In this document: in pieces, positions 27,307 through 39,259 of the stretch
Position numbering within the stretch: the stretch's first letter is position 1
How the letters are laid out: every line of letters begins with the position of its first letter
NCBI GenBank assembly: GCA_903922605.1
Contig: CAIXUG010000003.1
Span: forward strand, 62,001 to 126,000
DNA: 64,000 bases
Reading direction: 5' to 3'
Source: an uncultured Verrucomicrobiota bacterium
Lineage (GTDB): Bacteria > Verrucomicrobiota > Verrucomicrobiia > Limisphaerales > UBA9464
Program-made: the position numbers and the translations under genes
The notes under the pieces: generated by a model
The model's database searches: none
What the model was told of the DNA's origin: nothing
Seen by the model: only the letters and a program-made list of their open reading frames with translations

Positions 27307-28224
27307 ATGCTCCCCCCCGACTATCTCAAGCGCCTCCGGCAGGTTGAAGTCCGCGCGCGAATCGTGAGCGAGCAGCTCATGGGCGGGCGGCTCACCAGTG
27401 TGTTCAAGGGGCGCGGGATGGATTTTGCCGACGTGCGCGAATACGTGCCTGGCGATGACGTGCGACGCATTGACTGGAATGTCACTGCCCGGCTGCGGAA
27501 GCCCTACATCAAGCGCCACATCGAGGAGCGCGAGCTGGTGGTCATGCTGCTGGTGGATGTCTCGGCCAGCGGCCACTTCGGCACCGCGCCCGGCGGCGAT
27601 GCGCAGGCGGAGACCAAGCGCGAACTCGCCGCCGTGCTCGCCGGTGCGCTCGCCTTCAGCGCCATTCGCGACGGCGATCGCGTCGGCATGATCCTGTTCA
27701 GCGACCGCATCGAACGCTTCGTGCCGCCCAAGAAGTCGCGTGCGCACGTTACGCGGCTGCTGCACGAACTCCTCTTCACCGAGCCGAAATCTTCAGGCAC
27801 CTCGCTCAACGCCGCGCTGAATTTCCTGAACAACCTGCTGCACCGTTCCGCGCTGGTGTTCGTGCTGTCCGACTTCCACGACCATGACGAGGCCGCGTGG
27901 AGGCGGGCGCTGCGGGCCAGCAACCAGCGGCACGAGATGATCGCGCTTCGCACCGTGGATCAACGCGAGCTGGAGCTGCCCGATGTCGGGCTCGCGCTCG
28001 TGCAGGACTCCGAGACGGGCGAGGTGATCGAGCTGGACACCAGCGATCCCGATGTGCGCGCCGCCTATGCTGCCGCCGGCGAAGAGCGGCTGGCGGAGCT
28101 GAAGGTTTTCTGCCGTCTTAGCGGCGTGCCAGAACTCGATCTCCGCACCGACACTCGCGAATCCGCGTGGCCCCAGCGGCTGCAGAAGTTTCTCGATCAG
28201 GCGGCGAAGCGGCGCGTGGCATGA
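27307..28224 (+). CDS. DUF58 (von Willebrand-like) protein
   Basis: A 305-residue protein with the DUF58 hallmark near residues 38-60 (GRGMDFADVREYVPGDDVRR, then IDWNVTARLRKPYIK) followed by a VWA-like fold with a degenerate metal site (LLVDVSASGHFG). Members usually pair with MoxR and VWA proteins in envelope-related operons. An upstream start would read through the small gene, so the ATG at 27307 is preferred. It overlaps the next gene by 4 nt. Confidence 0.92.
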   Translation: MLPPDYLKRLRQVEVRARIVSEQLMGGRLTSVFKGRGMDFADVREYVPGDDVRRIDWNVTARLRKPYIKRHIEERELVVMLLVDVSASGHFGTAPGGDAQAETKRELAAVLAGALAFSAIRDGDRVGMILFSDRIERFVPPKKSRAHVTRLLHELLFTEPKSSGTSLNAALNFLNNLLHRSALVFVLSDFHDHDEAAWRRALRASNQRHEMIALRTVDQRELELPDVGLALVQDSETGEVIELDTSDPDVRAAYAAAGEERLAELKVFCRLSGVPELDLRTDTRESAWPQRLQKFLDQAAKRRVA

Positions 28225-28748
28225 ACCGCACGAACCTCATCGACGACCTGACGCTCGTGCCGCTGCCGCCTTGGTGGCAGTCACCCGGAGGTGTCGCGGT
28301 CACTGTTCTGGCGCTGGCGGCGCTCGTTTTTCTGATCTGGTTGCTGCGCCGGCTGCTGCATCGCGAGGTTGTGGTGCTGACTCCGCCGCCGCTGCAGCCG
28401 GACCTGCATCCGGAGTTTTTGCGGCGTCTGGCCGAACTGCGCGCCCGCCGAGCGCAGCTCTCCGCCTACGAGCTGGCGGTGGGCTGTTCTGATATTCTAC
28501 GTGATTATCTGGAATGGCGTTTCCAGCTGGCGATCCGCTTTCAGACCACGCGGGAATTTTTGGAATCTTCGCGACAGAACTCGGCCCTGGCGGAGACGCA
28601 ACGCACGGCGCTCGGCGCCTTTCTCAGTTTCTGTGACCTCGTGAAGTTTGCCCGGCGCGGGGCCGACCAGGCGGAGCAGGATCATCTGCTGGATGCGGCC
28701 GAGGCGTTCATCCGGCAGGGCACAACCCAGAAAGGAGCTGCGGCATGA
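28221..28748 (+). CDS. DUF4381-type membrane protein
   Basis: A 175-residue protein. A short N-terminus (LIDDLTLVPLPPWWQSPGG) leads into one membrane helix (GVAVTVLALAALVFLIWLL), then a cytoplasmic helical domain with RRLAELRARR and REFLESSRQNSALAETQ. This is the usual pattern of the DUF4381 gene between DUF58 and the VWA genes in Bat-type operons. Start and stop overlap the neighbours by 4 nt (ATGA), which indicates tight translational coupling. Confidence 0.85.
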   Translation: MNRTNLIDDLTLVPLPPWWQSPGGVAVTVLALAALVFLIWLLRRLLHREVVVLTPPPLQPDLHPEFLRRLAELRARRAQLSAYELAVGCSDILRDYLEWRFQLAIRFQTTREFLESSRQNSALAETQRTALGAFLSFCDLVKFARRGADQAEQDHLLDAAEAFIRQGTTQKGAAA

Positions 28749-29710
28749 TGCTGTCGTTCGCGCTCCCCGGCGGATTGGAGTTCCTGAATCCGTGGGTTCT
28801 CCTCGGATTGCTGCTCCTGCCCGTGCTCGCGTGGCAATTAGGGAAACGTGGGCCGTTGCCATCCGTACCGGTGCCGACGTTGCGGGGGATCGCGCAGTTG
28901 GGGACGCCGGCGCGCCGGCATTCCGGGGCTTGGCGGTGGTTCTGGGTGCTGCTGCCGCTGGCACTTATCTTTGTGGGGCTGGCGCGGCCAAGGTTGCCCC
29001 GGGGCGATATCCCGGACCCGAGCAAGGGCATCGACATCATGCTGGCGCTGGATTACTCGCGCTCCATGGCGGAGACCGATTTCCGGCTGAACGGCCACCG
29101 CGTCAGCCGCAAGGATGCACTCGTCCATGTCACCACGGATTTTGTGAAGGGCCGGGTGAATGACCGCATCGGCATCGTGTGTTTTGCGCGCACACCGTGG
29201 CTGGTCAGTCCGCTCACGCTGGATCATGACTGGGCGATGAACGCGATGAAGGAGGCTGAGCTGGCGACCGGCACGGGCATCGGCTGGGCGATCAACGCCA
29301 GCACGACCTTCCTCAAGAAGAGCAGCAACCGCAGCAAGGTCATCATCCTCATCACCGATGGCGAAAACTCATCCGGCCCGCGTCCCATGGAGATGGCGCC
29401 GATGCCGCTCCATGAACACATCAAGGTATACACGATCCTGATCGGGCCCGAAATGGTCACCCCCACTGCGGCGGCGAACCACGAGCTGAACAAGGTCGCG
29501 CGCCTGACCGGCGGGCAGTTCTTCCAGGCCAACGACGCGCGGGCCCTCACCGGCATCTACCAGCTCATCGACCAGTTGGAGAAACGCGAGCTGGTGCAGA
29601 AGCGCTATGTGTCGTGGCGCGAGCTGTTCCCGTGGTTCGTGGGCGCGGCGGCTGCGGTATGGCTGGCCGGTTTGCTGGGCACCCAGCTGCTGCGAAGGAG
29701 GCTGCCATGA
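28745..29710 (+). CDS. VWA-domain membrane protein (BatA-like)
   Basis: A 321-residue protein: two N-terminal membrane helices (about residues 17-34 and 56-76), a VWA domain with an intact MIDAS motif (LALDYSRSM, DxSxS pattern, with the later Thr/Asp at LITDGENSSG) and a C-terminal membrane helix (WFVGAAAAVWLAGLLGTQLL). Such BatA/BatB pairs are placed in the inner membrane with the metal-binding VWA domain in the periplasm or cytoplasm depending on topology. The second VWA gene follows after a heptad repeat element. Confidence 0.9.
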   Translation: MMLSFALPGGLEFLNPWVLLGLLLLPVLAWQLGKRGPLPSVPVPTLRGIAQLGTPARRHSGAWRWFWVLLPLALIFVGLARPRLPRGDIPDPSKGIDIMLALDYSRSMAETDFRLNGHRVSRKDALVHVTTDFVKGRVNDRIGIVCFARTPWLVSPLTLDHDWAMNAMKEAELATGTGIGWAINASTTFLKKSSNRSKVIILITDGENSSGPRPMEMAPMPLHEHIKVYTILIGPEMVTPTAAANHELNKVARLTGGQFFQANDARALTGIYQLIDQLEKRELVQKRYVSWRELFPWFVGAAAAVWLAGLLGTQLLRRRLP

Positions 29711-29713
29711 GGG

Positions 29714-29846
29714 AAATTCAAAATTCAAAATTCAAAGTTCAAAGGGGATTTCCGAAGAACGAGGACAACGGACTTGCTTCATCCGGCAGGCCTTGCGTTG
29801 GCGGTTTGACGTCTGTCCCAGGGAGTTATTCCGGAGCTTTGAGCTT
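29714..29846. repeat. Inverted-arm heptad element E1
   Basis: The left arm is four head-to-tail heptads of the form AAnnTCA (29714-29741); a 91-nt unique centre follows; the right arm is two heptads that are the reverse complement type, (T/G)GAGCTT (29833-29846). It separates the two VWA genes and ends 18 nt before the second one's ATG, so it forms most of the leader of that gene. Related elements: 30914-31077 and 36396-36472. Confidence 0.85.
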
Positions 29847-29864
29847 CCGCCTCTCTTCCACGCC

Positions 29865-30908
29865 ATGAGGTTCGCCCATCCCATCCTCCTCTATCTGACC
29901 CCACTGGTCGTGGGTGTCCTATGGCTTGGGCTGACGTTGGCGCGGCGGCGGCAGACGCGGCTGGTGGCCACCTTTGCCGGCGGCACGGGCCGGGCCTGGG
30001 CCAAGCCGAATTTCTCCACCTCGCGACGCCGGCTGGATTTGCTGCTCACCCTGCTTGGCCTGGCCCTGTTCGGCCTGACGCTCGCGCGGCCACTGGTTTA
30101 CCGTCGCACCGAGGCGAGCGAGTTGGAAGGCGTGCCCTATCTTGTGGCGCTGGACGCCTCGCGCTCGATGATGGCCACGGATGTGCGTCCCAGCCGTTGG
30201 GCGGTGGCGACCAACTCGCTCGACCGGTTTCTGGAAAACACCAAGGCCGACCGGATTGGCCTGATCAGCTTCAGCGGCGTGGCCTACCTGAACGCGCCGC
30301 TCACCTTCGACACCACGGCGCTGCGGACGACGCTGCGCTATCTCGATCCCAACGTGCTCGAAGACCCGGGCAGTTCGCTCGCCTCGGCGCTCGAGCGCGC
30401 CAGCCGGTATTTCGTGAGCAATCAGGTTTCGCCCCGGCTCGTCATCATCGTCTCGGACGGCGAGGACCTGGTGGGCAATCCGGTGGATGTCGCGCGGCGC
30501 ATCCATCGGCAGCAGCAGGTCCGCATCTGCACCGTGGGTGTGGGCACGCCGGGCGGCGCGCGGGTGCCGGTGAACCGCTACTACGGCGGCGTCGCCAAGA
30601 ACACTTTCGGCCAGGAGGTCACCTCGCGGCTGAACGAGAGCAACCTGCAACGGCTCGCCGCCGCCGCCGGGGGCAGCTACTACCGGCTCGACGAGGCGGG
30701 CGAAGCACTGGAGAAACTGCGGTCGGAGATACTAACGCCGATGGCCGAAGCGGCGGCGCACGAGGATCTGAAAAATTACGCCGAGCTGTATCAGGTGCCG
30801 CTCGCCCTTGCACTTCTGTGCCTGCTGGCGAAGGTGCTGCTGGGGTCGGACCGTTTTGCGACGGCCCGGAAACTGCCGGCAATTGCGGCGCGGTCGACGG
30901 CGGAGTAA
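29865..30908 (+). CDS. VWA-domain membrane protein (BatB-like)
   Basis: A 347-residue protein starting MRFAHPILLYLTPLVVGVLW. Two N-terminal membrane helices precede a VWA domain with an intact MIDAS (LVALDASRSMMATD) and a conserved IIVSDGEDLVG. A C-terminal helix (YQVPLALALLCLLAKVLLG) anchors the other end. The ATG at 29865 is chosen because the longer frame passes through the repeat element E1. It pairs with the preceding VWA protein; the TPR gene follows after a second heptad element. Confidence 0.9.
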   Translation: MRFAHPILLYLTPLVVGVLWLGLTLARRRQTRLVATFAGGTGRAWAKPNFSTSRRRLDLLLTLLGLALFGLTLARPLVYRRTEASELEGVPYLVALDASRSMMATDVRPSRWAVATNSLDRFLENTKADRIGLISFSGVAYLNAPLTFDTTALRTTLRYLDPNVLEDPGSSLASALERASRYFVSNQVSPRLVIIVSDGEDLVGNPVDVARRIHRQQQVRICTVGVGTPGGARVPVNRYYGGVAKNTFGQEVTSRLNESNLQRLAAAAGGSYYRLDEAGEALEKLRSEILTPMAEAAAHEDLKNYAELYQVPLALALLCLLAKVLLGSDRFATARKLPAIAARSTAE

Positions 30909-30913
30909 CTTGG

Positions 30914-31077
30914 AATTTCAAAGCTCAAAGTTCAAAATTCAAATGAACAGGCCAAGAAATCCCACGCCCCCACCTCGGCGTTCCTCAGAAAAGGAGCGAA
31001 GTGCGTCTTATCAGGTCGTGCGTCAGGGCCTGCTGCTCGGGGCTTCCCTGGTCATTGGAGCTTTGAGCTTTGAGCTT
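30914..31077. repeat. Inverted-arm heptad element E2, partly coding
   Basis: Left arm of four AAnnTCA heptads (30914-30941), then a centre of 115 nt, then three (T/G)GAGCTT heptads (31057-31077). The start codon of the TPR protein abuts the left arm, and the right arm is translated as GALSFEL in that protein's signal peptide. Same architecture as E1 and E3. Confidence 0.85.
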
Positions 31078-32565
31078 ACCCACGCTGCACCGCTCGACAT
31101 CGTGCCGCTGCAAAACCTGGTCAGCTCGGGGAAGGCCGAAGAGGCGGCGGACCAGCTTTCGGCGGCGCTGGAGAAGGATCCCGACAACGCGCGGCTGCTT
31201 TATGATCACGGCGTGGCCGCCTACGCGGCGGGCCGTTACGACGACGCGCTGCTCTCGCTGGACCGCGCCGAGTCGCTCGGCAAACCGGCGCTCGCCCGGC
31301 GGGCGAAATTCCAGAAGGGCAATGCGGAGTTCCGGGTCGGCCTCGCCGCCAAGTCGGCCAATCTCGACGATACGATCTCGCATTGGAAGGAATCCGTCCG
31401 TCTCTACGCCGAGTCGCTGAAGACCGGTGACGACGCCAACACGTCGGCCAATTTCGACTTCGTGCGGAAGCAGCTCCTTACCCTGCTCCTCGACGACGCG
31501 AAGAAGAACCTGCAGGCCGGCCTGCAGACCAACCAAGCGCCTGCCAACGCGATCGAGAAGCTGCGCAACGCCTTCGACAAATACACCGATGCCAAGGAGG
31601 TCGCGCCGGAAAACCAGGATGCGTCCGGCGGTGAGGCACAATCCCGCGACGCCCTGGCGCAGGCCCTGGCCAAGGAAGGCACCCGCAAGTCGCAGACGCA
31701 GCAACTGGTTGGCCCCAAGCCCTACGAGGCACCGATCCCGCATCCGGACTTCAAGCAGATCGAGGAGGGTGTCGCCATGCTGGAAGACGCGCACACGCTG
31801 GAACCGCAGGACAAGCCCATCGAGAAGGCCCTCGAGGAGGCGCGCCGCCGCATGGCCGATGCCTTTGAACGCCACGCGCGCGAGCTGATGGCACAGGAGG
31901 AGCGGCTGCCCTGGCCCAGTGAAAAGCTGGCCGTGCTGCGCATGGCCAAGGAACAGGTCGAGAAGGCGCTCGACAAGGTGCCCGACCACCAACAGGCGAA
32001 AGAAACATTGGCCGAGATAAACCGCCGTCTCGCTGCGGTCATGGAGGATCGGGCGGATGAGCTGGTGCAGCAGAGCCAGCAGGCCAATCTGGAGCAGCAG
32101 GCCCAGAATCTCAGCCAGTCACTCGATTTCTACCAGCAGGCGACCGAGCTGCAACCGAAGGAGGCGCGCCTGCCCCAAAAGGCCGCCAAGACCCAGGAAC
32201 AGCTCGAGAAGGTCCTCGACAAGCTGGCGGATAAGCTGATGCAGGATCCGAAAGGCCAGGAGTCGCTCGAAGCCCAGGCCGCCCGGCTCGAAGGGGCGGA
32301 GCAGGCGCTCGACGAACTGCAGTCCCTGAGTCCCTCCGAAAAGACCTCCGAAAAGGCGGAGCAGGTGGGCAAGAAGCTCGACGGCGTGCGCCAGAAGCTG
32401 GCCGACCAGGCCCAGAAATCCGGTCAGCAGCCCGGCGGCCAGCAGCCGGGCCAGATGCAGCCGCAGTTTCAGGGGCCGCCAATCGACGCCCCGCCCCGCA
32501 TCAACACACCGGGACAGAAGGGGCAGTACAGCTCGCCCATCATGAACAAAAAGCAGGATTACTGA
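30943..32565 (+). CDS. TPR protein of the Bat-type operon (BatC-like), Gln-rich tail
   Basis: A 540-residue exported protein. The signal peptide (GLLLGASLVIGALSFEL, cleavage near THA/AP) is largely encoded by repeat element E2. TPR-like helices follow (about residues 55-130, SSGKAEEAADQLSAALEKDP; YDHGVAAYAAGRYDDALLSL). The C-terminal half is a long charged helical region ending in a Gln/Pro/Gly-rich low-complexity tail. It is the last gene of the operon; no BatD-like gene follows. A GTG at 31018 would shorten the protein to a more normal signal peptide. Confidence 0.8.
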   Translation: MNRPRNPTPPPRRSSEKERSASYQVVRQGLLLGASLVIGALSFELTHAAPLDIVPLQNLVSSGKAEEAADQLSAALEKDPDNARLLYDHGVAAYAAGRYDDALLSLDRAESLGKPALARRAKFQKGNAEFRVGLAAKSANLDDTISHWKESVRLYAESLKTGDDANTSANFDFVRKQLLTLLLDDAKKNLQAGLQTNQAPANAIEKLRNAFDKYTDAKEVAPENQDASGGEAQSRDALAQALAKEGTRKSQTQQLVGPKPYEAPIPHPDFKQIEEGVAMLEDAHTLEPQDKPIEKALEEARRRMADAFERHARELMAQEERLPWPSEKLAVLRMAKEQVEKALDKVPDHQQAKETLAEINRRLAAVMEDRADELVQQSQQANLEQQAQNLSQSLDFYQQATELQPKEARLPQKAAKTQEQLEKVLDKLADKLMQDPKGQESLEAQAARLEGAEQALDELQSLSPSEKTSEKAEQVGKKLDGVRQKLADQAQKSGQQPGGQQPGQMQPQFQGPPIDAPPRINTPGQKGQYSSPIMNKKQDY

Positions 32566-32578
32566 TGGAGACCCCATC

Positions 32579-32648
32579 TTGCTCCTGCTCCTGCTCTTGC
32601 TCCTCCAAACAAGACGGGGCGGCAGAGCAAGAGCATGAGCATGAGCAG
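32579..32648. repeat. Inverted-arm hexad element E5
   Basis: The left arm is four hexads of the form (T/C)TGCTC (32579-32602), the centre is 22 nt, and the right arm is four hexads GAGCAN (32625-32648), the inverted form. It follows the TPR stop codon by 14 nt, in the convergent gap before feoB. Same layout as the heptad and octad elements but with a 6-nt unit. It could fold into a hairpin of over 20 bp. Confidence 0.85.
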
Positions 32649-32741
32649 GAAAAGCGAGGGGTAGGGCGATGCCGAGAGTGGGAGTGCCCAAAGCGTGCAG
32701 CAGCAACGAAACGTTCCGACCGAGAACCCTGAACCGGAAGC

Positions 32742-35129
32742 TCAGAACCCGAGCAGGCGTCCGCCCAGATGGCAGAGGAGTGCCAGTACCCATGCGAGTC
32801 CCGTCATGTAGGCAAACTGGAACGCCGGCCACTTCCACGAGTTCGTCTCCCGCCGCACGATGGCCACGGTGCTGACGCACTGCATGGCGAAGACGTAGAA
32901 GACCATCAGCGTGATGCCGGTGAGCGCCGTGTAAACCGGAGTGCCGTCATCGCGGCGCTCCTGTTGCATCACGCTGGCTAGGTTCGCGGTGGCGGTCGAG
33001 TCGCCGGCATCGAGCTCACCAACGTTATAGACGACCGACATCGTGCTCACGAACACCTCACGCGCCGCAAACGAGGCCACGATGCCGATGCCGATCTTCC
33101 AGTCAAAGCCGAGCGGCCGGATCACGGGTTCGATCGCATGACCGAGCCGGCCGGCAAAACTGTGGCGGAGCTGTTCGCCGGCCTGCTGCTTGTCCAGTTC
33201 CTCCAGCCGGGCATTCAGCGCGAAGTGCGCCGGCGAGTTGGTTTCCGCTCCGGGCTTGGCCAGGACCGACTCCAGTTCCGCCCGCATTTCTGACTCTTTC
33301 CAGAGATTGGTGCGTGTCGGGAAAAATTGTGCGACCGCCTGCTGCCTGGCCGCAATAACCTGGGCATCGGCCGAATGATTTTTCGGATACGCCACCAGGA
33401 ACCACAGCAGGATGTTGATGCCGAGGATCACGGTGCCCGCACGCCGCAGGAACAGCTTCGAGCGGTCCCACATGTGGCGCAGCACGACCTTCAAGACCGG
33501 GCGTTTGTAGGGCGGAAGTTCCAGGATGAGCGGTGGCGGCTCGCCCTTCAGCAGGGTGCGCTTGAAGAGCCACGCCATGCCCAGCGCCCCTACGATGCCG
33601 AGCAGGTACATCGCGGTCATCGTCAGCCCGCGTCGCAATGCACCACCACCGATGGTCGCCGCGATGAGCACCGTGTAAACCGGCAGGCGTGCGGAGCAGC
33701 TCATCAGCGGCGCGATGAGGATCGTCACCAGCCGGTCCTTCGGTGACTCGATGGTGCGCGTGGCCATGATGCCGGGGATTGCGCACGCGAAGGACGAGAG
33801 CATCGGGATGAAGCTCTTGCCGTGCAGCCCCACGCGTGACATCAGGCGGTCCATCAGGAACGCGGCGCGGGCCATGTAGCCCGTGTCCTCTAGCAGCGAG
33901 ATGAACATGAACAGCAGGCAGATCTGCGGCAGGAAAACCACGACCGCCCCGACGCCCTTGATGATGCCATTGGCCACCAGATCCTGCAGATCGCCCTGGC
34001 CGAGGGCGGCGCTGACGTGCCCGGCGAGCCAGCCCACGGCGGCATCGAGCGCATCCATCGGCAGCTGAGCGAAGAAGAAGATGGAGACGAACATCGTCAC
34101 CATGATGCCGATGAAGATGAGCAGGCCCCACACGCGGTGGGTGAGAATGCGGTCGAGCCGGTCCGAAAAGTTTTCGCCCTCGACAACCGTCTCGGTGGTG
34201 ACGTGCTGGGCGATGGCGAACACGCGGGCGTAACGCGCCTCAATTGCCGCGCTGCGCCAGTCCACTCCCGCCGCCTCCAATCGCGCACGCGCGGCCGTGA
34301 CCGCTTCGCGGATCGCGACCGGATACAGATCCGGCTGCGCGTTCAGCACCTTGTCGTCGCTCAGAATGAGCAGCGCCTCGGCGGAGGCGAGGCGTTCGCG
34401 GTGCGGGAAGAACTTCTCCAGCATCTCCTCGATGGCCTGCGCCTCGTGGCCGAAGTTTTCGGGCAATTCCTGAAAGGAGCGCGCGTCAGCCAGTGAGCCA
34501 GTAGGCCAGTGAGCCAGTGGGTCAGAGGCGCTGGATTCCAAGTCTGGCCCGCTGGCTTTCTGGCTTTCTGGCTTACTCCCCGCCTGGCTTACTGGCTTAC
34601 TTGCGAAACGGTTCACTGCCGCCTTCAGCTCCGTGATGCCCTCGCTCTCGCTGGCGACGAGGGGAAATACGGGAACACCCAGGGCGGCGGACAGCCCTTC
34701 GAGGTCGATCTCATGGCCGTTGGCGCGAGCCACATCGACCATGTTCAGCGCGAGGAACGTCGGGTGGCCGAGTTCGATGACCTGCGTGGCGTAGTAAAGA
34801 TTGCGCTGCAGGTTCGAGGCGTCCACGACCACGATGACGAGGCTGGGCTCGGGGACGTCCGGCAGGCGCTGGAACAGCACGTCGCGCGCAATCTGCTCAT
34901 CGAGCGACTGAGGGCTGAGCGAGTAGGTGCCCGGCAGATCGAGCATCGTGACCGGATGCGCCGCGTCCGCGCCGAGCATCGCCCCCTCCTTGCGCTCGAC
35001 GGTGACGCCCGCGTAGTTGCCGACCCGGGCGCGCAACCCGGTGAGTGCGTTGAAGAGCGTGGTCTTCCCGCAATTCGGGTTGCCGGTGAGGACGGCGGTG
35101 AAGGTGGAGACGGTGGTGGCCATGCTCAT
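32742..35129 (-). CDS. feoB: Ferrous iron transporter FeoB with a repeat-derived insertion
   Basis: A 795-residue GTP-driven Fe(II) transporter in the inner membrane. The N-terminal G domain has G1 (GNPNCGKTT, residues 16-24), G3 (DLPGTYSL) and G4 (NMVD); a GDI helical domain and about ten membrane helices with two gate regions follow. Between the G and GDI domains (about residues 177-215) lies a Ser/Pro/Gln-rich stretch encoded by an octad repeat element, absent from typical FeoB. It is the last gene of the reverse-strand feo cluster, separated from the feoA genes by a transposase. Confidence 0.95.
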   Translation of the reverse strand: MSMATTVSTFTAVLTGNPNCGKTTLFNALTGLRARVGNYAGVTVERKEGAMLGADAAHPVTMLDLPGTYSLSPQSLDEQIARDVLFQRLPDVPEPSLVIVVVDASNLQRNLYYATQVIELGHPTFLALNMVDVARANGHEIDLEGLSAALGVPVFPLVASESEGITELKAAVNRFASKPVSQAGSKPESQKASGPDLESSASDPLAHWPTGSLADARSFQELPENFGHEAQAIEEMLEKFFPHRERLASAEALLILSDDKVLNAQPDLYPVAIREAVTAARARLEAAGVDWRSAAIEARYARVFAIAQHVTTETVVEGENFSDRLDRILTHRVWGLLIFIGIMVTMFVSIFFFAQLPMDALDAAVGWLAGHVSAALGQGDLQDLVANGIIKGVGAVVVFLPQICLLFMFISLLEDTGYMARAAFLMDRLMSRVGLHGKSFIPMLSSFACAIPGIMATRTIESPKDRLVTILIAPLMSCSARLPVYTVLIAATIGGGALRRGLTMTAMYLLGIVGALGMAWLFKRTLLKGEPPPLILELPPYKRPVLKVVLRHMWDRSKLFLRRAGTVILGINILLWFLVAYPKNHSADAQVIAARQQAVAQFFPTRTNLWKESEMRAELESVLAKPGAETNSPAHFALNARLEELDKQQAGEQLRHSFAGRLGHAIEPVIRPLGFDWKIGIGIVASFAAREVFVSTMSVVYNVGELDAGDSTATANLASVMQQERRDDGTPVYTALTGITLMVFYVFAMQCVSTVAIVRRETNSWKWPAFQFAYMTGLAWVLALLCHLGGRLLGF
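34486..34601. repeat. Inverted-arm octad element E4, in frame inside feoB
   Basis: On the plus strand the left arm is five octads with consensus TGAGCCAG (34486-34525), the centre is about 25 nt, and the right arm is inverted octads, CTGGCTTT/CTGGCTTA type (34551-34601), with one 9-nt break. The element is translated as a low-complexity segment (SKPVSQAGSKPESQKAS) in FeoB. Its length keeps the frame. Confidence 0.85.
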
Positions 35130-35275
35130 CGATTTTTAAACAAAGCCACGGCCACAGCGTGTTTCACAACGACGCCAGGCAGGCAAGGTCCGGGCTGTAA
35201 GCCCGCCCGAGTAATGCCTGGGCTGGAGCGAGCACCGCGAGCGAAGGCCCAGGTACCCGGCCTCAATATGTTGGC

Positions 35276-35783
35276 AAGGGCTGAAGGCCCGTCCGAAATG
35301 GCCAGATCATTCCCAGGCATAGCGTTCATCCAGTTTGATTCCGTTCTTCTGGCTCAGGCGACGAACCTCATCCTGGAAGCTAATTGTCTCATGATGCTTC
35401 TGCTGACCTCGAATGTAACGGCGCAGCGGTCCGACATGCGTTTGGCTCACGCTGAAAGCCCAGTAACCAGTCTGCCACTGGAAGTCCGAATACCAGCCGG
35501 CCTGCTCCTTGAGCCAGCCGGAGGAGAGGCCTTTGACCAGTTCGATCGCTTTCGCCAAGGCGAGGTTTTTGCTTAGCACGAAAAGGACATGGGCATGGTC
35601 GGTCACCGAATTGATTTCCAACGGCTGGCAATCGTGATTCTTGAGGATGCCGCCCATGTTGGCGTGGAGTGCTTCGCGCTCTGTTCCGCGCAACAGTGGC
35701 CGGCGCACCTTGGTCGAGAAGACCAGATGGATCAGGTTGTTGGCGAGGGACTGGGACATCGTTCGGGCGGGCCTTCAGCCCTT
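35276..35783 (-). mobile_element. IS200/RAYT-like transposase unit with flanking inverted repeats
   Basis: A transposase gene is framed by a 21-bp inverted repeat, 35276-35296 and 35763-35783, matching at 20 of 21 positions and containing the palindromic core GGGCTGAAGGCCC. The repeats start about 10 nt after the stop codon and 4 nt before the start codon. Further palindromes lie outside on both sides. This layout fits a REP-associated tyrosine transposase with its REP sequences, or a small IS200-type element. It lies between the 94-residue gene and feoB, so the operon is interrupted. Confidence 0.75.
35307..35759 (-). CDS. IS200/IS605-type (Y1, HUH) transposase
   Basis: A 150-residue protein of the Y1 transposase family. 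The HUH motif is HAH at residues 55-57 (VTDHAHVLFVL) and the catalytic tyrosine is Y115 in RYIRGQQKHH. It starts MSQSLANNLIHLVFSTKVRR, as in many IS200-like and RAYT proteins. These enzymes cut and rejoin single-stranded DNA at hairpins. Its length is complete, and all catalytic residues are present, so it may be active. Confidence 0.92.
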   Translation of the reverse strand: MSQSLANNLIHLVFSTKVRRPLLRGTEREALHANMGGILKNHDCQPLEINSVTDHAHVLFVLSKNLALAKAIELVKGLSSGWLKEQAGWYSDFQWQTGYWAFSVSQTHVGPLRRYIRGQQKHHETISFQDEVRRLSQKNGIKLDERYAWE

Positions 35784-35790
35784 GAGGCGT

Positions 35791-35824
35791 TTTCCGGGCC
35801 GGAAACCTGGGGCTTCACCCCAGG
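35791..35824. repeat. REP-like palindromes next to the transposase
   Basis: Two adjacent palindromes, TTTCCGGGCCGGAAA (35791-35805) and CCTGGGGCTTCACCCCAGG (35806-35824), lie just upstream of the transposase gene. On its other side are CGGGCTGTAAGCCCG (35191-35205) and an inverted CCTGGGC/GCCCAGG pair (35217-35253). They look like REP units that RAYT transposases recognise, although recognition here is not shown. Confidence 0.65.
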
Positions 35825-35867
35825 CAATATTCGGACACGCTTTCAGCGCTTGGAAGATAGCCATGCG

Positions 35868-36152
35868 TCATTTCTCCATCAGGAAAAGGCGCGTTCCCAC
35901 TGGCACAGCGTCTTTCTGAACGCCTCGAAGTTGTACGACCCATTCCCAAAGCCCCGGCAGGGCCCCTCGGTTGAAATGTGTCAGGCCAATGTGTGCAGAT
36001 GTCTCAACGGTAGAGTTATCCGGACGCTCCAAACGGACTTGCACGTCGATGGCACCTCGATAAGACGCGAGGCTAGGTGTCAGGACAATGCCACGCCCTT
36101 CAATGTTGAAGGTATCGGTTACGACCAATAACGGCTCATCGGCCATTGTCAT
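35868..36152 (-). CDS. Stand-alone EF-Tu domain II-like small protein
   Basis: A 94-residue protein. The sequence VTDTFNIEGRGIVLTP near the start and VVQLRGVQKDAVPVGTRLFL near the end match the pattern of domain II of EF-Tu-like translation GTPases (F-x-I-x-GRG...LRG...G..L), with no GTPase domain attached. The gene overlaps the end of feoA by 4 nt (ATGA), so it is translationally coupled to iron uptake. Its role is unknown; a beta-barrel adaptor function is an inference. Confidence 0.65.
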   Translation of the reverse strand: MTMADEPLLVVTDTFNIEGRGIVLTPSLASYRGAIDVQVRLERPDNSTVETSAHIGLTHFNRGALPGLWEWVVQLRGVQKDAVPVGTRLFLMEK

Positions 36153-36388
36153 ATGGCTGCCCTCACCATCACCTGCTCCGCCTCGTGCTTCCTTAGCGAA
36201 AGATTGTACCCACGGATTTTGATCTCGACCGGGTCACCCATTGGCGCGAAGCGCACCAGCTCCACCGTGGTGCCGACCAGCAGGCCCATTTCCAGCAGCC
36301 GGCCGCGGTGCTCCACCGGCACGCGGATTTCGGTCACGACGGCCTTTGTGCCGGGGGTGAGGGAGGAAAGCGGGAGGGGGGTGTTCAT
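36149..36388 (-). CDS. feoA: FeoA-domain protein
   Basis: A 79-residue SH3-like FeoA protein, MNTPLPLSSLTPGTKAVVTE through the conserved LLEMGLLVGTTVELVRFAPM and GDPVEIKIRGYNLSLRK segments. FeoA assists FeoB-driven Fe(II) uptake. The ATG at 36388 is chosen because an upstream TTG start would lie in the heptad element E3, only 7 nt away. It is the middle gene of the reverse-strand feo cluster. Confidence 0.93.
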   Translation of the reverse strand: MNTPLPLSSLTPGTKAVVTEIRVPVEHRGRLLEMGLLVGTTVELVRFAPMGDPVEIKIRGYNLSLRKHEAEQVMVRAAI

Positions 36389-36395
36389 GGGAACG

Positions 36396-36472
36396 AAGCT
36401 CAAAGTTCAAACCGGAATCGATCAGGCTTATTCAATCGGAGCTTTGAGCTTTGAGCTTTGAATTTTGAACTT
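36396..36472. repeat. Inverted-arm heptad element E3
   Basis: Left arm of two AAnnTCA heptads (36396-36409), 28-nt centre, right arm of five TGAnnTT-type heptads (36438-36472). It fills the gap between the two feoA genes and ends 7 nt from the downstream feoA start codon, so it forms its leader. Same family as E1 and E2. Confidence 0.85.
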
Positions 36473-36480
36473 CCCCGTCT

Positions 36481-36777
36481 TCACGCCGCCAGCCGCATCG
36501 GCGCGACCGGTTGCACGAGGATGTTCTCCGCCAGCTTCGCGCTGAGACCGAGGCGGGCGTTGCAGACCTGGCAGAGGACGTTGTTCTGGAGCGTGATGAC
36601 CTTGATGCGCTGCTCCTCGCCGAAACCCATCTCCCGGAGACGCTGGTTCACCTCGTGGTCCGCCGTGAGCTGCTTGACGATGACCACGCATCCGGCGCGG
36701 ACACGGCTGAGCGGCGACAACCCCGAGGCGGGGGGCGTCGTGGCAGGCGGAACCGGCACTGGAACAGGCTTGCTCAA
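36481..36777 (-). CDS. FeoA-domain protein, second copy
   Basis: A 98-residue FeoA-like protein with a Pro/Val-rich N-terminal extension (MSKPVPVPVPPATTPPASGL) and a normal core (VNQRLREMGFGEEQRIKVIT; QVCNARLGLSAKLAENILVQ). It is the first gene of the cluster; the 170 bp before it show no clear Fur box. Two FeoA genes before FeoB are a common arrangement. Confidence 0.88.
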   Translation of the reverse strand: MSKPVPVPVPPATTPPASGLSPLSRVRAGCVVIVKQLTADHEVNQRLREMGFGEEQRIKVITLQNNVLCQVCNARLGLSAKLAENILVQPVAPMRLAA

Positions 36778-36963
36778 GTGCCCGGAACCTAGGTCATACC
36801 ACCCCGGTCAGGCAAGAAAGCCGGTTGTCGGTGGATTGCGCTCGGCTGTCGGTTGGTTGTCGCCAGCGGAGGAACCGGTTCCGTAGAACCCCGTACTTGC
36901 CGCTTGGCTGGTATCAGGTATCTTTATGGGCGTTCGTCACACTCACAATTACCTCCCACGATT

Positions 36964-37587
36964 ATGGCTTTTGAACTCGCACCCCTCCCTTACGCCCAGG
37001 ACGCCCTCGAACCGCACATCGACACGGCCACGATGGGCATCCACTACGGCAAGCATCATGCCGCCTACGTCACCAACCTGAACAAGGCCATCGCCGGCAC
37101 GCCGCTCGAGGCGAAGTCGCTCGAAGCCATCATCAGTGATCTGGCCAATGTGCCCGATGCGATCCGTGGACCCGTCCGCAACAACGGCGGCGGCCACTGG
37201 AACCACACGTTCTTCTGGAACATCCTTTCGCCGAAGGGCGGCGGCGCCCCGACGGGCGACCTCGCGGCGGCGATCACCGCCAGCTTCGGCAGCTTCGACG
37301 CGTTCAAGGAGAAGTTTGAGGCCGCCGGTGTGGGCCGCTTCGGCTCCGGCTGGGCGTGGCTCGTCGTCAACGGCGGCAAGCTCGAAGTCGTCTCGACCGC
37401 CAACCAGGACAATCCGCTCATGGGCAAGGCCGTCGCCGGTGTCGAAGGCAAGGCCATCCTTGGCATCGATGTCTGGGAGCACGCTTATTACCTGAAGTAC
37501 CAGAACCTCCGCGCCGCCTACCTCAAGGCAGTCTGGAACGTGGTGGACTGGACCAAGGTCGCCGCGCTCTACGCCGCCGCGAAGTAA
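36964..37587 (+). CDS. sodA: Superoxide dismutase, Mn-type
   Basis: Dismutates superoxide to oxygen and hydrogen peroxide. Length of 207 residues is usual. Metal ligands are H27, H81, D169 and H173 ([13 protein letters not shown]). [11 protein letters not shown] and the [10 protein letters not shown] region with Q148 point to a Mn or cambialistic enzyme and not a strict Fe one. The ATG at 36964 is preceded by weak promoter-like sequence, and a strong terminator follows. It is cytoplasmic, with no signal peptide. Confidence 0.95.
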
Positions 37588-37617
37588 GCGTCGCCGCTCC
37601 CGATTTTTTCTAAGCAC

Positions 37618-37654
37618 AACCCGCGTCCGATCTCTCGGACGCGGGTTTGTTTTT
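37618..37654 (+). terminator. Rho-independent terminator after superoxide dismutase
   Basis: A 13-bp perfect stem (AACCCGCGTCCGA with TCGGACGCGGGTT), TCTC loop, then TGTTTTT, placed about 30 nt after the sod stop codon and before kdsA. Confidence 0.92.
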
Positions 37655-37693
37655 GCCGTCGCCGCCAGCGCCATCTTCCCGCAATCTCCAGCC

Positions 37694-38524
37694 GTGCTTG
37701 ATTCATCCGCCAACCTCTGGCGTGCGCTCAATGACCGCCGCCATCTGTTTCTCATCGCCGGCCCGTGCGTGATCGAGAGCGAGGCGCTGTGCCTCCAAAT
37801 CGCCCGCAAGCTGAAGGCCACCTGCGCCAAACTCGGCATCACCTACGTCTTCAAGGCCAGCTACGACAAGGCGAACCGCTCTTCCGGCAAATCGTTTCGC
37901 GGGCCGGGCATCGCGGAGGGGTTGGCCACGCTGGCGTGCATCCGGGAAAAGGTCGGCGTACCGGTCCTCACGGACATCCACAACGAGGAGCAGGCCATTG
38001 CGGCCGCCAAGGCGGTGGACATCCTGCAAATCCCCGCGTTTCTCTGCCGGCAGACCGATCTCATCCACACCGCCGTGGCGACGGGTGCGATCGTCAACAT
38101 CAAGAAGGGCCAGTTCCTCGCGCCGCAGGACATGGGCAACGTGGTCAAAAAGGCCGCCGAATCCGCGCCCGATGGCAAGCCGAAGCTGCTCCTCACGGAG
38201 CGCGGCACCACCTTTGGATACCACAACCTCGTGGCCGACATGCGCTCGCTGCCGATCATGGGCGCGCTCGGCTATCCGGTGGTGTTCGATGCGACGCATT
38301 CGGTGCAATTGCCCGGCGGGGCAGGGGACAAATCCGGAGGGCAGCGGGAATTTGCGCCTGTCCTCGCGCGTTGCGCCATCGTCGCCGGGGCCAACGGGCT
38401 GTTCATCGAGACGCATCCGAATCCGGACGAGGCCATGAGCGATGGCCCGAACATGATCCCGCTGGCGGACATGCCCAAGCTGCTCGCGCAGTTCTTAAGG
38501 CTTCAGGCGGCACTGAAGGGATGA
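37694..38524 (+). CDS. kdsA: 2-dehydro-3-deoxyphosphooctonate aldolase (KDO8P synthase)
   Basis: Condenses phosphoenolpyruvate and arabinose-5-phosphate to Kdo-8-phosphate, for lipopolysaccharide inner-core synthesis; its presence implies a Gram-negative outer membrane. Landmarks in the 276-residue protein are [49 protein letters not shown] and [12 protein letters not shown]. The start is a GTG at 37694. A small gene follows after 12 nt, perhaps in the same transcript. Confidence 0.96.
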
Positions 38525-38536
38525 GCAAGCTCGGGA

Positions 38537-39154
38537 ATGAAGCTGCCCGGCATCATCTTCGAAGGTCCTCCGGTTGATCCGGCAGGCCTGACCGGACTGC
38601 CTCAAGCTTACCGGGCTTTACTGGCTCGACTCAACGGGTTCATCGCTTTTCGGGGAGGCTTGCATGTGCGGGGCGTCTGCGCCGGGCCGGCCTGGCACTC
38701 GTTGGCGGCCATCCAGTCTGGCGAGGATGCCCTCCACAAACTGTTTCCAGCCATCCGGCCGGATGACGTCTGCTTCGGACAGGATTGTCTCGGTGATCAG
38801 TTTTTCCTGCGCACCCGTTTCCTGCGCGACCCGGTAGTGTACCGGCTTTTCGGCGAGAGTGGAGAGCTCAAAAACCTGAAGCTGAATTTCGACGATTTCC
38901 TGCGAAAGGCTGTCGAATCGCCGGTTGAGTTTCTGGGACTCCAACCTTTGTTGCGGTTTGAGGCCGAAGGTGGGCGATTGTCGCCGGACCAATTGCTGAG
39001 CGCTTACCCACCATTCGTTTTCAACGAAAGCGGACAGGGAGTTTTGTTGCGGGCCATACCAAAGTTGGAGCGGATTGGATTCTTGGCGTGCATGGCCCGT
39101 CAATTGGCCGATGTTCCGGATGGCGGATCTGTCCGAATCGTTATCAAAGACTGA
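38537..39154 (+). CDS. SMI1/KNR4 (SUKH)-like protein
   Basis: A 205-residue soluble protein. The N-terminal LPQAYRALLARLNGFIAFRG and LHVRG pattern resembles SMI1/KNR4 (SUKH) folds, which serve as immunity proteins or regulatory adaptors. The C-terminus (RLSPDQLLSAYPPF, LERIGFLACMARQLADVPDG) is consistent but not diagnostic. It starts 12 nt after kdsA, likely cotranscribed. No toxin gene is adjacent, so an immunity role is unlikely here. Confidence 0.55.
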   Translation: MKLPGIIFEGPPVDPAGLTGLPQAYRALLARLNGFIAFRGGLHVRGVCAGPAWHSLAAIQSGEDALHKLFPAIRPDDVCFGQDCLGDQFFLRTRFLRDPVVYRLFGESGELKNLKLNFDDFLRKAVESPVEFLGLQPLLRFEAEGGRLSPDQLLSAYPPFVFNESGQGVLLRAIPKLERIGFLACMARQLADVPDGGSVRIVIKD

Positions 39155-39259
39155 GCGGAACAGCGTTCATTGAAGAGGTCTGAATGGATTCGGCTTGAAT
39201 CGTCTGCCCGGTTGCCGCGTCTTGCTCTTTCACCCGACGCTCGTCACAAAGCAATATCC

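Follow-up and report, generated by a model that had tools for sequence, protein, structure and literature searches.

Short hairpins with stems of tandem 6-8-nucleotide words recur between the genes of a Verrucomicrobiota genome and its relatives

We examined five elements, E1 to E5, in a 64,000-nucleotide stretch (the window) of the genome of an uncultured Verrucomicrobiota bacterium of the order Limisphaerales. The genome is GenBank assembly GCA_903922605.1 (5.3 Mb, here G000), and the window is positions 62001-126000 of contig CAIXUG010000003.1 (here C3). A preliminary description had portrayed each element as an arm of tandem 6-, 7- or 8-nucleotide (nt) words, a unique centre, and an arm of the same words inverted. 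We find that elements of this plan are real, abundant and more general than that description said. They exceed chance expectation by far, their words combine a fixed core with free letters in one uniform polarity, copies in a sister species share a consensus, and their sites differ between relatives. We lean, on balance, towards reading E1-E5 as members of several families of short non-coding dispersed hairpins, resembling miniature inverted-repeat transposable elements (MITEs) and hairpin-forming doublets of repetitive extragenic palindromes (REPs; REPINs), whose stems are made of tandem 6-8-nt words.

Results

Inverted tandem arms are abundant and mainly intergenic

The scan of the window presupposed no word: arrays of period 5-12 were collected, and those sharing a period were then paired if their words were reverse complements of each other; words with fewer than three different letters or with a composite period were omitted from the scans. 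In a G000 sample of 896,701 bases (0.90 Mb), much of it picked around heptad matches, there are 44 inverted tandem-arm elements, of period 6 (8 elements), 7 (28), 8 (7) and 10 (1); E1 is excluded from this set. The sister species G004, which is approximately 90% identical, has 31 such elements in 672,722 bases, and shuffled sets have none. One plan with differing unit length and word, as proposed from the window, is thus found genome-wide and far above its frequency in shuffled sequence. Less biased stretches, each set against one shuffle that gave 0 elements, had densities per Mb of 60 (C3), 23 (ten other G000 stretches) and 46 (G004 contig C46), and other genomes had 20 (G007), 8 (G005) and 25 (G002).

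The excess is also seen in the arrays themselves. At score 12, 49 of 138 arrays had an inverted partner within 200 nt and 8 had a direct partner; most arrays had no inverted partner at this score, and one shuffle of the same sequence contained a single array. In 794,701 bases of G000 we obtained 25 inverted rows (E4 counted twice) and 1 direct row, compared with 0 in 3 shuffles. The tandem heptad TTTGARY (pattern TTTGARYTTTGARYTTTGA) matched 61 times in G000 and its reversed control once. Pattern-match totals, here and below for TTTGARY and its reversed control, the inverted hexad and TTGGNNC, count overlapping registers and therefore exceed the numbers of elements.

According to gene calls from our own simple codon model, 38 of the 44 elements are intergenic and 6 lie inside gene calls. 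Among the intergenic elements, 26 of 38 have a predicted gene start or stop no more than 20 nt away. The spaces holding them are co-directional in 24 cases, convergent in 6 and divergent in 8, which is similar, by counts alone, to the 234, 67 and 104 among all 405 spaces of at least 60 bp. At L018:5422-5574 and L020:9770-9908 elements are nested, the centre of an element of another word type enclosing an octad element or one half of a heptad element.

Words have a fixed core, free letters and one polarity

In the hexad GAKYAN, taken from the arms of G000 and G004 in a frame set to favour positions G1, A2 and A5, the first five positions are nearly fixed to one or two letters: G in 130 of 132 words, A in 132, T or G in 130, T or C in 126, and A in 130. 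The last base is free (G 36, A 60, C 15, T 21). Polarity of the arms, scored where an element uses one of the common words of 6, 7 or 8 nt, was uniform in all 54 scorable elements (31/31 in G000 and 23/23 in G004); the remaining 21 of 75, built of other words, were left unscored.

Compared in outside-in register, the two arms do not mirror each other's free base. Matches numbered 112 of 215 in the named genomes, where 104.5 were expected, 6 of 21 in G000 (5.7 expected) and 13 of 27 in G004 (10.8 expected). This disfavours copying of one arm from the other, and in this register we rejected the idea that one arm served as template for its partner. The unit GGGANTN, a word known from Xanthomonas, is absent from the unit lists of our samples, which hold other words instead.

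Copies of one word form families

Ten selected TTGG-heptad elements of G004 align as one hairpin family, with approximately 50 nt per stem and a variable loop; the one-armed array L296 was left out. TTGGNNC (pattern TTGGNNCTTGGNNCTTGG) matched 20 times in G004, once in G000 and 0-13 times in six other genomes, and TTTGARY showed no excess in G004 (6 matches vs 11 for its reversed control). By eye, 5 of 14 TTGGNNC places in G004 fall at junctions that carry TTTGARY in G000 (E2, L011, L014, L015 and L038), and L041:9011 resembles these junctions but lacks an exact threefold match. A switch of word at shared sites, which we had considered, is thus a minority pattern.

The hexads are more widespread. 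An inverted hexad pattern occurs in 28 of 146 genomes of the order, and its reversed control in 0; matches per strand were 44 in G000, 36 in G004 and 177 in G374. The listed G374 places have one common centre with small variations. Five G374 copies and two from a named assembly embed their hexads, which number from 2 to approximately 11 per arm, in a longer conserved repeat. In genus g22, eleven copies embed them in a repeat that has inverted ends of its own, ATTGAATTAAGC and GCCTTAATTCAAT, and is incomplete in some copies. A stricter hexad pattern gave at least 118 stretches in named genomes; the records among 80 of these include Desulfobacteraceae, Planctomycetota, Verrucomicrobia, Kiritimatiellales, Lentisphaerae, Ignavibacteria and others. 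Besides the hexads by which they were picked, the same 80 loci contain 17 heptad, 2 octad, 1 nonad and 2 decad elements. One of the carriers is an isolate, Chthoniobacter flavus Ellin428, which has hexad, heptad and decad versions.

The heptad pattern, searched across 288 genomes of the phylum in which G000 was the sole listed genome of its order, was found in G000 and in one low-complexity case only. Its reversed control was frequent in some relatives (whole genomes of G025, G030 and G055; 17 and 24 matches in G025), perhaps because of another word.

We also searched G000 (96% complete; E 0.001) with element centres. Removal of 9 inherited, nested or genic elements from the 44 left 35, of which 17 have a centre of at least 38 nt. 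Every one of these 17 centres finds itself, and none has a second source in the genome except embedded arrays: the 17 further hits fall in embedded arrays of other words. Copying of whole elements within G000 was rejected as an explanation, as the centres are dissimilar to each other.

The preliminary description had suggested that one generating process, not descent, accounts for the shared plan. Within a word, the data instead favour common descent of copies, because polarity is uniform, ten G004 copies share a consensus, and hexad arms elsewhere lie inside conserved dispersed repeats. Descent, judged from these sequence comparisons, is supported within a word and is not demonstrated between words.

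Junctions with elements differ between sister species

G004 and part of C3 are colinear, most blocks having 84-95% identity. We compared 183 of 223 intergenic spaces, those of at least 60 bp. An element is present in both species in 13 spaces, in G000 only in 20, in G004 only in 6 and in neither in 144, a sharing of presence greater than expected by chance (Fisher p 3e-7). Sites also differ between relatives, in line with the preliminary description. The median alignable fraction was 98% for spaces without an element (n=144), 26% where G000 alone has one (n=20), 53% where G004 alone has one (n=6) and 93% where both do (n=13). Spaces with a G000 element could not be aligned to G004 in 21 of 33 cases, compared with 40 of 150 spaces without. 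Among these non-alignable junctions the sharing of presence was not significant (4/17/3/37 in the same order, p 0.22).

By eye, the word in G004 differs from that in G000 at nine or more junctions. At L016:349 the octad AGCCAGTG corresponds to the heptad CTCCCAA, and at L020:1427 the hexad GATTAN corresponds to the octad GGAAARCA. Near-empty counterparts in G004 were found for L036 (-2), L032 (2), L040:19310 (26), L037 (34) and E1 (-8).

Of the 44 G000 elements, 5 have no counterpart region in G004, 26 have both flanks, and 13 lie within one alignment. Identity of the arms exceeded that of the centre in 11 of these 13 pairs, including E4 and L047, which lie in gene calls. This is suggestive of stems better conserved than centres.

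Some G004 insertions are of other kinds. A 449-bp insertion in C46, at the counterpart of G000 C3:138717-138725, has the ends GGCGGTGTCC and GGACACCGCC with a 9-bp direct repeat, TATCCGTTG, and resembles an ordinary transposon-derived element. At the counterparts of L027:9611 and L046:14119, G004 has larger inserts that resemble hairpins and are of the GGGAGAGGG...GGTGAGGG type, one of them with a 5-bp direct repeat, ATGAA.

The elements of the window

The pair scan recovered E2, E4 and E5 from the window, with 0 pairs in 10 dinucleotide shuffles, and recovered E3 when a shorter second arm was allowed. The left arm of E1 is strong, but the best inverted match to it spans 10 nt and scores 7, below threshold. 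The features are as follows (window coordinates; no strand is assigned except to feoB).

29704-29712, GCCATGAGG, left copy of the 9-bp direct repeat flanking E1; includes the stop of the upstream gene; a single GCCGTGAG in G004
29714-29744, E1 left arm, heptads AAATTCA/AAGTTCA; array scan
29833-29846, E1 right arm, weak, two heptads GGAGCTT TGAGCTT; by eye, under scan threshold
29862-29870, GCCATGAGG, right copy of the E1-flanking repeat; includes the start of the downstream gene
30918-30943, E2 left arm, heptads TCAAAGC/TCAAAGT/TCAAAAT; pair scan, period 7
31058-31077, E2 right arm, heptads GAGCTTT, in the signal-peptide region of the TPR gene; pair scan, period 7
32580-32602, E5 left arm, hexads TGCTCN; pair scan, period 6
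32624-32647, E5 right arm, hexads NGAGCA; pair scan, period 6
32742-35129, minus strand, feoB, host gene of E4; domain matches FeoB_N, Gate and FeoB_C
34488-34519, E4 left arm, octads AGCCAGTG, inside feoB; pair scan, period 8
34552-34601, E4 right arm, octads CTGGCTTT/CTGGCTTA, in blocks 34552-34574 and 34584-34601, inside feoB; pair scan
36396-36411, E3 left arm, two heptads; scan allowing a shorter arm
36439-36472, E3 right arm, heptads GAGCTTT/GAATTTT; array scan (pair scan gives 36439-36469)

When folded as RNA and compared with 200 shuffles, E2-E5 lay below shuffled sequence, with z scores on the plus and minus strands of -3.6 and -2.6 (E2), -3.7 and -2.3 (E3), -7.9 and -3.7 (E4), and -5.7 and -4.0 (E5). 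E1 folded no better than shuffled DNA (+0.6 and +1.4). Thus, four of the five elements first listed stand as inverted-arm elements, and E1, with two heptads in its right arm, does not reach the same standard. A search of window positions 28000-38000 against Rfam 15 gave 17 matches up to E 1, all under the gathering score and 16 of them to microRNA families.

The genes around E1-E5 comprise a DUF58 gene, two VWA genes, a TPR gene, feoB, a Y1 transposase gene and two feoA genes. E2 spans the start of the TPR gene, and its right arm codes for signal-peptide residues, GALSFEL in G000 and, by reading, GAWPLEL in G004. E4 lies within the reading frame of feoB, in the linker of FeoB. The linker has the element in G004, is diverged but similar in G002 and G003, is short in G001, G006 and G007, and was not seen in G005. 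At the E3 site, G004 has a similar, weaker element by eye (unflagged by the scan), and G002 and G003 have a 59-60-bp spacer without an element.

The E1 junction has no insert in G004 or, by projection, in G005, and other inserts in G002 and G003, the latter with a direct TGTTCAG array. These junctions of relatives weaken the case that E1 was inserted cleanly and recently, with duplication of a 9-bp target. The 9-bp repeat may in part reflect a need to keep both the stop and the start that it contains.

The Y1 transposase gene lies among E3-E5. It is flanked by different, palindromic-looking repeats (35192-35254 and 35812-35850) with dozens of partial matches in G000 and G004, and one flank (35806-35850) weakly matches the Rfam family Acido-Lenti-1 (21.9 bits vs a gathering score of 37). 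Further downstream, window positions 38524-39214 comprise 689 bases in G000 vs 15 in G004 and include a 205-amino-acid reading frame (38537-39154). We considered the Y1 transposase as the mover of the elements and found no linkage. The clustering of the elements near the Bat and feo operons and the Y1 gene, which the preliminary description had pointed out, is real; however, Y1 loci elsewhere carry elements at approximately the background rate.

Comparison with described repeats

MITEs are non-coding, dispersed and have inverted ends. The present elements are likewise non-coding and dispersed; the g22 hexads lie in a repeat with inverted ends, the ten G004 copies share common stems, and the G374 hexads lie in a conserved repeat. 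In contrast to MITEs, we saw no terminal repeat common to the G000 elements other than the words themselves, and the flanking duplication is not constant. The cyanobacterial short tandemly repeated repetitive (STRR) sequences are short heptad arrays, mostly intergenic.

A close arrangement is that of Xanthomonas, for which one report (PMC4692102) describes dispersed degenerate heptads, (GGGANTN)n, that are 89-93% intergenic at a mean of 28 nt from the 5' neighbouring ORF, with 70 and 75 inverted convergent pairs in two genomes that may form stem-loops. As described there, the GGGAATC/(GGGANTN)n arrays share with the elements here a degenerate tandem unit with fixed (1-4 and 6 in Xanthomonas) and free positions, inverted convergent pairs, and a dispersed, mainly intergenic placement. 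They differ in having one word, of G-quadruplex type, and one length, whereas several words and lengths occur here. The plan is therefore not wholly new, contrary to the earlier statement that no class with mirrored arms had been described. In the open-access literature searched we found no description of this range of words and unit lengths together, and the claim to novelty extends as far as that search.

REPINs, as described in PMC3116915 and PMC3733652, have conserved inverted arms and a less conserved spacer, form hairpins, and are extragenic and dispersed. GTAG REPs, whose stems measure 5-13 bp, are reported there from Verrucomicrobia (O. terrae) among others, and in the Pseudomonas genome described each REPIN type has a cluster beside a REP-associated tyrosine transposase (RAYT) gene. 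The inverted arms, hairpin, extragenic position and dispersal are shared; the absence of a visible link to a Y1 gene here is a difference from those accounts. TAACTGA heptads of Beggiatoaceae, Cyanobacteria and Bacteroidetes also form short, mostly intergenic arrays in several phyla, but are nearly all direct (PMC4679880 counts 169 direct sets and a single inverted one in its genome). Foldback/Galileo elements of Drosophila (PMC3573991) have long, internally repetitive inverted ends whose repeat number differs between the ends of a copy. With ends of approximately 18-1250 bp, a P-type transposase and a eukaryotic host, their likeness is one of plan only.

Discussion

In the reading that we lean towards, the stems carry the same word core in opposite orientation around a loop that would change fast, and copies of one family would share descent. 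Copies may spread as units by means of a trans-acting enzyme that acts on hairpin DNA. The stem would be the recognised part, and elements would be kept by their stems. The number of words probably changes by slippage, because word numbers are unequal. Elements lie mostly between genes, with E4 in frame within one, and whole junctions differ between sister species.

Several observations weigh against this reading. Among 30 fetched Y1 loci (approximately 1.9-3.4 kb each, 93 kb in total, from more than 100 Y1 matches in a transposase search that covered Y1_Tnp only), 2 held an element, which is near the background of 8-60 per Mb, so the adjacency to a Y1/RAYT gene typical of REPINs is not seen. 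Flanking duplications at three near-clean sites are inconsistent, with 9 bp at E1 (of uncertain origin), 0-2 bp at L036 and none at L032, where MITEs would show a constant length. At E1, gain and loss are indistinguishable, because G002 and G003 hold other sequence and G004 and, by projection, G005 none. In G000 we saw neither a consensus nor a common terminal repeat beyond the words, and, embedded arrays aside, its centres match only their own G004 counterpart or stretches of 16-30 nt. Of the nine further TTGGNNC places, L295 has a G000 heptad element, L296 falls in a stretch that aligns between the two species, and the remaining seven have none in G000 or are unplaceable. Where a junction with a G000 element is not alignable, the G004 sequence is hairpin-like in 7 of 18 cases, no clear excess over the 4 of 26 other non-alignable spaces (p 0.09), and tends weakly to be more repeat-like (inverted-repeat excess p 0.24, periodicity p 0.046). 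Two of the 13 aligned pairs, both in gene calls, have arms less conserved than the centre. In seven pairs with an alignable centre, identity was 340/390 (87%) for arms, 351/441 (80%) for centres and 1723/1890 (91%) for flanks, and since alignment of repeats favours arms, the conservation of stems is suggestive only.

Functional RNA hairpins that act in transcript ends, processing or protection, selected at junctions and immobile, with changes of word as drift under a structural constraint, would account for the intergenic placement close to gene boundaries, the better conservation of stems than centres in 11 of 13 pairs, the folding of four of the five window elements and the sharing of presence between G000 and G004. 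However, there is no evident preference for gene orientation by counts alone, 6 of 44 elements are inside gene calls, and sharing is not significant among non-alignable junctions; we consider this explanation unlikely. A broader version of the mobile reading, in which a wide class of mobile hairpins, defined by word-built stems with fixed core and free letters, has lineage "dialects" (TTTGARY in G000, TTGGNNC in G004, GAKYAN in several phyla), and in which intergenic sites persist while a factor acting in trans recognises the core and rewrites or replaces the elements there, strikes us as rather unlikely as well.

The one generating process of the preliminary description, taken as local polymerase slippage plus fold-back template switching, would make the tandem arms and their inverted copy, and hence the words, anew at each site. 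That unit lengths of 6, 7, 8 and once 10 coexist in one genome, that centres are unlike each other, and that sister species differ in word at L016:349, L018:4734, L020:1427 and C3:132545 (by eye) would all fit such a process. It fits poorly with a polarity uniform in every scorable element, with free letters that are unmirrored, with words that recur at many sites (TTTGARY in G000, the GATTAN hexad across phyla), and with the G004 consensus and the common centre of the G374 places, and we regard it as improbable. Chance, low complexity or metagenome assembly artefact might be suspected because the words are short and simple and the named hits are mostly metagenome assemblies. The empty shuffles, the bias towards inverted over direct partners, the copies that two species have inherited with conserved arms and the presence in an isolate, Chthoniobacter flavus Ellin428, already refute this explanation, to which we give almost no credence.

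These hairpins mark junctions that have changed between sister species, and their hexad type spans records named Verrucomicrobia, Planctomycetota, Desulfobacteraceae, Ignavibacteria and others. If the elements are mobile, they would be moved by an agent still to be named; if they are functional, a code of core plus free letters would be read.

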